DNA from: Methylobacterium sp. SyP6R
GTDB taxonomy: Bacteria; Pseudomonadota; Alphaproteobacteria; Rhizobiales; Beijerinckiaceae
Length of the DNA stretch: 64,000 bases
Reading direction: 5' to 3'
NCBI RefSeq assembly: GCF_019216885.1
Contig: NZ_JAAQRC020000001.1
Location: forward strand, 2,542,001-2,606,000
Under the pieces are notes generated by a model. That model saw only the letters and a list, made by a program, of their open reading frames with translations. It had not been told where the DNA came from and searched no databases. A program made the position numbers and the translations under genes. How positions within the stretch are numbered: the stretch's first letter is position 1; each line of letters starts with the position of its first letter. Below, in pieces: positions 15,690 through 37,909 of the stretch.

Positions 15690-16094
15690 ATGGCCAGGGC
15701 ACCCCGCAGCCGTTCCACCGACAGCTACAAGACGGTCGGCCGCACCTACGACGGCGTAGAGGTCCTGGCTCCCAAGACGCGCTCGAAGACCTTCACGTCC
15801 GCCGAGGTCCGGCAGGCGATCAAGCTGGCCCTGAAGCAGGCCGGCGTACCGAGCACACCTCGCAACACCAAAGCCACGAAGTCTCTGGTCGAGACGGACA
15901 AGCTTCGCGTGCAGCAGCGCGAGGACGGCCGCTACGAGGTCCGCAAGCCCGGGGCCAAGCGAGCCAGCGCGGTCATGGACACGCAGAAGGAGGCTGTGGC
16001 CCGCGCCCGTGAGCTTGAACCCGGCAACGCCCCGATCGCCAAGCGCGTCCGTCGCTCGCCTGCCGGGAAGAGGAAGACGTGGCGCGAGACGTGA
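15690..16094 (+). CDS. DUF2188-domain protein
   Basis: 134 basic residues. The C-terminal half fits DUF2188 (QQREDGRYEVRKPGAKRASA then DTQKEAVARARE), a small basic domain with a repeated beta-beta-alpha pattern and unknown role. The N-terminal 60 residues (SYKTVGRTYDGVEVLAPKTR) are not recognised. ATG at 15690 follows GAGGG by 6 bases. Its end overlaps the next gene by 16 bases, suggesting co-translation with the NDT/TIR-like protein. Confidence 0.75.
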   Translation: MARAPRSRSTDSYKTVGRTYDGVEVLAPKTRSKTFTSAEVRQAIKLALKQAGVPSTPRNTKATKSLVETDKLRVQQREDGRYEVRKPGAKRASAVMDTQKEAVARARELEPGNAPIAKRVRRSPAGKRKTWRET

Positions 16095-16870
16095 GCCCGC
16101 GGACGGCCGCGAAGAGGAAGCAGAAACCGAGTACGGCGCTCGACGTTTTCATCAATTGCCCGTTCGATCCGGAATACACCGAGATCTTCAACGCGATCGT
16201 CTTCACGGTGGTCCGTTCCGGCTACCGAGCTCGGTGTGCCCTTGAGATGGACGATGGCGCCGAGAACCGGCTCTATAAGATCATCAAGATCATCGGGGAG
16301 TGTCCGTTCGGCATCCACGACATCTCTCGAACCGAGACGAACGGCGAGCCACCACTGCCGCGTTTCAATATGCCGCTCGAACTGGGTCTCTGGCTGGGAG
16401 CGCATCACCTCGGCCGCACGGATCAAGCCGGCAAGCGCTGTATTGTATTCGATCGTGAGCCCTACCGCTATCATCGTTTCATACGCTTTCCGATTGATCG
16501 CTTCGCGATGCGGAAAGCGGCTTCGCTCAGGCGCCGCGCGGGCTGATGATACGAAATCCGGAAGTGATCTTCCGGATTTCGTATCATTTCCGACATTGGC
16601 GGGCAGGACATCCACTCCCATGACCGCTGCGTTCGAACGCTGATCGCGAAACTCGCCACTTGGCTGCGGCATCTCCCCGGTGGCATCCATGCAGGGGGAG
16701 GTCAAAGTATTCTGCGCGAGTACGAGGCCTTCCGGTCCATCCTGCCGGTCCTGTGCAGGCAGAAAGACATGACCCCGGAAGAACTCCAATTCGCTGACTT
16801 CAACCTGATGGCCACCGAGTACATCGTCAGCCTGAGGGAGGAGGTGATCGCTCCGGTCGATATTCCTTAG
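16079..16870 (+). pseudogene. NDT/TIR-like protein gene interrupted by a 105-bp palindromic element
   Basis: GTG start at 16079 behind GGGAAGAGGAAGAC. The intact frame gives DVFINCPFDPEYTEIFNAIV, GYRARCALEMDDGAENRLYK, CPFGIHDISRTE, LPRFNMPLELGLWLGAHHLG and KRCIVFDREPYRYHRF, then meets repeat sequence and a TGA at 16544. In the same frame, right after the repeat, the protein resumes: ISDIGGQDIHSHDRCVRTLI to the TAG at 16868-16870. Without the insert it would be 228 residues. The Cys-Pro-Phe-Asp start and the ELGLWLGA segment recall nucleoside 2-deoxyribosyltransferase/TIR-like folds; that link is inference and the family is otherwise unnamed to me. Confidence 0.8.
16479..16587 (+). mobile_element. 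MITE-like palindromic element inserted in a gene (family B, copy 1)
   Basis: 105 inserted bases with TCAT on both sides (16479-16482 and 16584-16587), consistent with a 3-4 bp target duplication. The 3' part is a perfect hairpin: 19-bp arms 16546-16564 and 16569-16587 (ATGATACGAAATCCGGAAG) around TGAT. The 5' part (TTCGCGATGCGGAAAG, GCTTCGCTCAGGCG, CCGCGCGGGCTG) is shared with copies at 23836-23960 and 30236-30317. No transposase gene inside. The insert keeps phase but brings three in-frame TGA codons. Confidence 0.8.
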
Positions 16871-23835: not shown

Positions 23836-23960
23836 GTGATACGGCGTCCGGAAGATTCCTTCCGGACGCCGTATCACCAGCCCGCGCGGTGAAGCCGTAG
23901 GCTTCACACGCCTGAGCGAAGCCGGTTTCCGCATCGCGAAGCGATCAATCGGCGACTGTA
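23836..23960 (-). repeat. Family B palindromic element, copy 2
   Basis: Perfect hairpin with 19-bp arms (GTGATACGGCGTCCGGAAG, 23836-23854; complement 23859-23877) around ATTC. Then CCGCGCGG-type sequence, an extra small hairpin GTGAAGCCGTAGGCTTCAC (about 23887-23905) and the shared flank CGCCTGAGCGAAGCCGGTTT CCGCATCGCGAAGCGATCAA. It is the reverse orientation of copy 1 at 16479. The outer bases CCTGTSATAC / GTATCACAGG are near-symmetric. Fills most of the gap between the GntR gene and pbpC. Confidence 0.8.
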
Positions 23961-30212: not shown

Positions 30213-30235
30213 GAGAAGGCCTCCGAGGCTGGCAT

Positions 30236-30317
30236 ACGGTTTCCGCATCGCTCAAGCGCCGCGCGGGCTGGATGACCCGGTGTCCGAACGGATCGTTCGG
30301 ACACCGGGTCATCCAGC
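30236..30317 (+). repeat. Family B palindromic element, copy 3 (truncated 5' part)
   Basis: Hairpin with 23-bp arms (30267-30289 and 30295-30317, GCTGGATGACCCGGTGTCCG core) preceded by TTTCCGCATCGCTCAAGCGC and CGCGCGGGCTG, as in copies 1 and 2. Sits upstream of the hydrolase start and downstream of nothing else, in the hydrolase-hsp20 divergent gap. Confidence 0.75.
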
Positions 30318-37767: not shown

Positions 37768-37909
37768 CCCACCCACGACCTCATCCTGAGGTGTCAGTCG
37801 ATTGAAAATCGACTGACCTCGAAGGAGGGCTCCGGAAGTCTCCGCGATCCCTGGAGCCCTCCTTCGACGCTCCCTGACGGTCGCACCTCAGGATGAGGTC
37901 GTGGGTGGG
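37768..37909. repeat. Multi-hairpin inverted repeat (family C)
   Basis: Outer 26-bp perfect arms (CCCACCCACGACCTCATCCT..., 37768-37793; complement 37884-37909) enclose two further hairpins: GTCAGTCGATTGAAAATCGA CTGAC (37793-37817) and GGAGGGCTCC / GGAGCCCTCC. The CCTCATCCTGAGG core is a common intergenic motif in Hyphomicrobiales. It separates the molbindin gene from the ABC importer. Confidence 0.85.

Follow-up and report, generated by a model that had tools for sequence, protein, structure and literature searches.

A 102-bp palindromic mobile element with a TCA target duplication interrupts a gene of Methylobacterium sp. SyP6R

The window analyzed here, a 64,000-nt stretch of the Methylobacterium sp. 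SyP6R genome (positions 2542001 to 2606000 of contig C1 of genome G000, a 7.5-Mb assembly in 6 contigs with completeness given as 100), contains a forward-strand gene that opens at position 16079 and, as a single frame read across an insert, reaches its native stop at 16868-16870. The insert divides this gene into a truncated frame (16079..16546), in which 134 native codons are followed by insert-derived codons and a TGA at 16544, and an orphaned 3' part (16587..16870, same strand) that remains open and aligns with homologous proteins. As the original prediction had it, the frames on the two sides are parts of one protein: all 12 aligned full-length homologs (202 to 235 aa) join the sequence ending in YRF, or a close variant of it, directly to ISDIGGQD with no gap, and the consensus of 38 homologs is likewise continuous across the insertion site. 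The 134-residue front piece has 5555 protein matches at E values of ≤0.001; no Pfam domain is found on the 120 matches listed, and searches of Pfam, PADLOC, and NCBIfam with the gene pieces yielded no useful family match. The codon usage of the interrupted gene differs from that of the long genes of the window. Its closest homolog among 111 genomes of the genus (locus L253, genome G069) also contains two in-frame TGA codons. The upstream neighbor (15690-16094) matches DUF2188 (E value of 3.7e-10) and the PADLOC candidate-defense model PDC-S16 (E value of 1.8e-8).

The insert adds a net 105 bp, the length originally assigned to the element itself, but this figure is the sum of a 102-bp palindromic element, TACG...CGTA (16482..16583, forward strand; model match of 130.8 bits), and a 3-bp duplication of its target, TCA, read in the sequence at 16479..16481 (left copy) and 16584..16586 (right copy). 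The direct repeat that had been described as TCAT on both sides is real, but only the three bases TCA are duplicated; the fourth letter agrees by coincidence, since T is both the first base of the element and the next base of the flank. The clean empty site that alignment with homologs was proposed to reveal is seen in the 12 proteins and at two homologous loci (L097 and L121), each of which has a single TTCATTTC at the place of the insertion. By landing at TCA, the element ends the reading frame of the window gene, bringing with it the three expected in-frame TGA codons, located at 16544, 16547, and 16565. A recent insertion fits the state of the rear piece, which is still open and can be aligned with its homologs.

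In its main form, the element is 102 bp long, with two terminal hairpins separated by a short linker. The left hairpin (16484..16519, forward strand), as folded, has a 9-bp outer stem and a 5-bp inner stem; the right hairpin (16550..16583, forward strand) has a 15-bp stem and a 4-nt loop within the element, and its arms grow to the 19 bp of the perfect hairpin described earlier once the duplication and the flank are included. Folding of a 118-nt stretch gave a z score of -7.19, with none of 200 shuffled sequences being as stable. In an alignment of 42 copies (33 distinct sequences), 98.2% of the cells are paired, and four pairs are changed on both sides (three in the right hairpin and, in 17 of the 33 distinct copies, the outer pair 5-36 of the left one), which amounts to 44 cells versus 14.4 in shuffles, a value that 0 of 500 shuffles reached; the counts of covarying pairs and of pair types in the same 42 copies were no higher than in the shuffles. 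The terminal inverted repeats are short and imperfect, most of the 42 copies carrying TACGNNNTCCG at each end. An Rfam scan of the window returned no family at its gathering score. A second, 121-bp form has an additional hairpin in the middle and is represented in the window by a reverse-strand copy at 23840..23960 (101.3 bits; TCA on both sides in its own orientation), and a third, decayed copy lies on the forward strand at 30235..30308 (50 bits; E value of 9.8e-9). The interrupting sequence thus does have two relatives in the window, as predicted, but these are the 121-bp form and a decayed copy rather than plain 105-bp repeats.

A genome-wide search for the unit, suggested along with the original prediction, found 114 matches to its 24-nt core at up to 3 mismatches; since the control search with the reversed pattern found none, chance matches can be excluded. 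The element shares with MITEs a short length (102 or 121 bp), a lack of coding capacity, with stop codons in frame, and a high copy number, as well as terminal inverted repeats and the target site duplication described below. Of the core matches, 102 were fetched and parsed, and both ends were recognized in 70 copies, the other 32 falling outside the triplet count given below (of the 73 rows from a previous version of the parser, two were spurious 21-nt matches). Seven parsed copies, including the one that interrupts the window gene, are identical to the letter; six of them are on contig C1 and one is on contig C2. The family resides mostly between genes. In a codon-usage test of the flanks of the 70 copies, coding-like sequence was detected on both sides of none, on one side of 3, and on neither side of 67; because genes with atypical codon usage, such as the window gene, escape this test, further intragenic copies may have gone unseen. 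The threshold was calibrated so that 95% of the 180-nt pieces of training genes scored at least 0.168, and an uncalibrated threshold gave the same counts. The exceptions to intergenic placement are the window copy and a copy of the left half lying within the remnant of a transposase (L356). Such an intergenic bias is compatible with mobility. The search for a long version of the element among partial copies and lone right hairpins covered loci L232 to L241 of the 20 loci that extend to L251; at one of them (L235; G000:C1:4165900-4168400), a lone right hairpin lies between 12-nt complementary arms, forming one long palindrome.

The same triplet is present on each side of 58 of the 70 copies (TCA in 51, TGA in 5, TTA in 1, and TAA in 1), and the next triplet outward is identical in 5 of the 70. 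Were TCA the only such triplet, it might belong to the element itself; since TGA, TTA, and TAA pairs also occur, the triplet is a duplication of the target. The 12 copies with no matching triplets are mostly one base off TCA on one side, and three of them have mixed triplets (TCA/TGA, TGA/TCA, and TTA/TCA). Matching triplets flank 33 of 41 copies in three related genomes (TCA in 32 and TGA in 1); in another count, 9 of 30 copies from relatives were without identical triplets, and an earlier parser had found identical ones in 41 of 45 copies.

Filled and empty target sites can be compared directly at a second repeat, R2 (CTCATCCTGAGGTG...), which has 136 matches in the genome when up to 3 mismatches are allowed and into which the element has been inserted repeatedly. 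The empty copies contain a single triplet, GGTG-TCA-GTC or GGTG-TTA-GTC, and one of them lies in the window (37780..37827, forward strand; G000:C1:2579780-2579827); elsewhere, R2 holds insertions at GGTG-TCA-GTC. In the filled copies, the triplet is found on both sides of the element, as TCA/TCA or TTA/TTA and, in the reverse orientation, as TGA/TGA or TAA/TAA; insertions in the two orientations have 8 and 2 distinct left flanks, respectively. These sites bear directly on whether the repeat moves at all. The strong hairpins and the lack of coding-like flanks around 67 of the 70 copies would also suit a fixed structural or regulatory repeat, such as a terminator or a methylation or nucleoid site, in which case a different rearrangement would have disrupted the window gene. 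That explanation, to which hardly any credence can be given, is contradicted by the empty-site evidence: the insertion in the gene is a clean 105 bp, R2 sites exist both filled and empty, the triplets are duplicated, and identical copies are found on two contigs. The same observations uphold the original view of a recently mobile, nonautonomous MITE-like element.

The sites chosen for insertion fit the palindrome CGTnTNAnACG, which at the scored positions coincides with the abutted ends of the element, CGTA-TNA-TACG. For 37 target sites, left after removal of those adjoining IS110 or another element end, the mean score was 3.27 of 6 positions, compared to 1.22 for 1253 TCA triplets in the window, and none of 10,000 resamples reached it, the six positions being derived from the very 37 sites that were scored. 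With R2-like sites removed, the score was 3.52 (25 sites), and in related genomes that had not been used in deriving the motif, it was 2.54 (28 sites), again with 0 of 10,000 resamples reaching either value. The orientation of the element tracks the central base of the target, with 51 TCA to 5 TGA sites in this genome and 32 to 1 in the relatives. A target consensus that mimics abutted ends and an orientation that follows the central base are both features expected of a circle moved by site-specific recombination, whose CGTA-TNA-TACG junction would recombine with a similar chromosomal site, the TNA core fixing the orientation with no cut-and-fill duplication; the three copies with mixed triplets would then be copies with mixed cores. 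This explanation appears distinctly unlikely. Seven copies are flanked by a matching pair of non-TCA triplets, more than the three with mixed TNA triplets, R2 has received insertions in both orientations, and a second palindromic family, TACC...GGTA, has varied triplets of its own. This family (123 to 187 nt; L078, L088, L262, L274, L277, L288, L289, and L306), met in the fetched loci of the same genome, has identical TNA triplets at 7 of its 8 copies (TCA at 4 and TTA, TAA, and TGA at one each; TTA/TAA at the eighth), although its orientation was set arbitrarily.

As for the enzyme, a reading of TCA as a fixed insertion site with no duplication would make the element a REP/IS200-type sequence, moved as single-stranded DNA by a hairpin-recognizing Y1 (HUH) transposase. 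The covarying hairpins at both ends and a TCA that is nearly constant in the orientation of the element could be so explained, but TGA, TTA, and TAA are duplicated at R2 sites, and the genome contains no match to the Y1 transposase domain PF01797 at E values of ≤0.001, a control search having produced matches in 5 of 14 genomes. A Y1-driven origin is therefore largely refuted for this genome and very improbable overall. The other source named in the original prediction, IS110, has a different relation to the element. In the IS110-family element of this genome (PF02371 and PF01548; L261 to L277), 13 of the 17 listed left ends directly follow the GTATCA end of the palindromic element, 3 of the remaining ones follow ends of the second or a similar palindromic family, and 1 is in a tandem of the IS itself. 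These ends mark the palindromic element as a target of IS110, which was accordingly set aside as its mover; insertion of IS110 elements into palindromic repeats has been reported for REPs (PMC1525189). In two copies (L232 and L233), the right hairpin is interrupted by another insertion, whose frame is IS110-like by appearance.

The explanation that we favor, and consider likely, is that of a nonautonomous, MITE-like element moved in trans by a DDE transposase of the IS5/IS1031 type, or by an enzyme that works similarly, with duplication of TNA at a palindromic site. The enzyme supplied in trans would recognize the hairpin-bearing TACG ends and make a 3-nt staggered cut at TNA within CGTnTNAnACG, and joining of the element at this cut would leave TNA duplicated. 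The assignment to the DDE class is suggested by the 3-bp duplication. An exclusive 3-bp duplication at a TNA target has been reported for the IS1031 group of the IS5 family (PMC12016507), and a similar pattern is seen in a resident IS5-family element (PF13340 and PF01609; L182 to L192), whose 10 full copies of 927 bp, nearly identical to each other, have identical 3-bp flanks in 8 cases (TGA in 5 and TCA, TTA, and TCT in one each); by analogy, both would speak for a DDE enzyme. The 927-bp element shares TCCGG at end positions 8 to 12 with the palindromic element, but it encodes a transposase, its tips (GAGTCTGTCCGGG; GAG/GTG) are unlike TACG, and its target flanks look different; the tips of a described member of the group, ISLrh (GAACCTG; PMC12016507), differ from TACG as does the GAGTCTG of the resident element. 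With the protein of the resident IS5-family element as the query, tblastn matched 2436 plasmid records. No convincing autonomous partner, combining TAC tips with a DDE frame, was recognized among 24 PF13340 and 22 PF01609 loci (overlapping sets) in a scan of 1.5 kb on each side for exact TNATAC and GTATNA tips, which, with the PF01797 search, represents the families covered; the best inverted matches, at 5/20 and 9/20 positions, amount to none.

Along with the missing partner and the differing tips of the 927-bp IS, several other observations count against a DDE enzyme. The main one is the orientation bias, which symmetric insertion would not predict. The 12 of 70 copies with unmatched triplets and the conserved hairpins weigh in the same direction, since ordinary DDE terminal repeats do not need conserved hairpins, as do the counts of covarying pairs and pair types that fail to exceed those in shuffles.

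In its design, the palindromic element appears closest to the CIR repeats of Caulobacter, Brucella, and other alphaproteobacteria, as this work of Chen and Shapiro (2003) is described in a 2007 review (PMC2229807). According to that description, CIR elements are ∼110 bp long, consist of two stem-loop arms and a linker, have TA termini and stop codons in the reading frames, and lie between genes, features that are also seen in the present, mostly intergenic family. The review also mentions a conserved GANTC in the terminal loop, which is found here in 28 of 73 parsed rows and is missing from the window copy, and it lists the target duplication of CIR as “?” and no copies inside genes, whereas both a target duplication and an intragenic copy are seen here; it further states that more information is needed on the movement of CIR repeats. 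The Bru-RS of Brucella (103 to 105 bp, a similar length) and RIME of Rhizobium, compared by description only, are also palindromic intergenic repeats (PMC3163539, PMC2267715, and PMC2573895). MiniMdi3 from Methylobacterium extorquens, present as 4 and 8 MITEs in two genomes (PMC2680597), is likewise nonautonomous and comes from the same genus, but it is ∼400 bp long and related to ISMdi3. The consulted portions of the literature on Methylobacterium and alphaproteobacterial MITEs (including PMC2680597, PMC10969869, and PMC2229807) contained no description of the element. A broader proposal, which we regard as tentative and rather doubtful, envisages a general, undescribed alphaproteobacterial mobility system, in which one enzyme would serve elements that share hairpin ends and TAC/GTA tips but not their inner sequence, the target would be equivalent to the abutted ends, the center of the 3-bp core would set the orientation, and CIR-like repeats would be among the products.

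Matches to a model of the element (R1) were found in 67 of the 111 genomes of the genus; in a sample of 297 genomes from the order, 8 had matches, 3 of these lying outside the family. Among the loci from these three genomes, one has TCA on both sides (L315), and the others, as cut, have no matching pair. A first DNA search of relatives had matched 22 of 61 genomes, all from the same genus, and 0 of 24 genomes outside it. All four named plasmid records that contain similar elements belong to Methylobacterium, and in 34 named, mostly alphaproteobacterial loci of the 80 fetched, the R1 model found nothing above chance.

Two-armed palindromic repeats are frequent in the intergenic DNA of alphaproteobacteria, and for one family of this kind, a target duplication has now been measured, a target rule derived, and a clean intragenic insertion documented; the end of the element also doubles as an IS110 landing site. 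With these three gains, the mover can be sought by its TNA duplication, palindromic target, and TAC/GTA tips.
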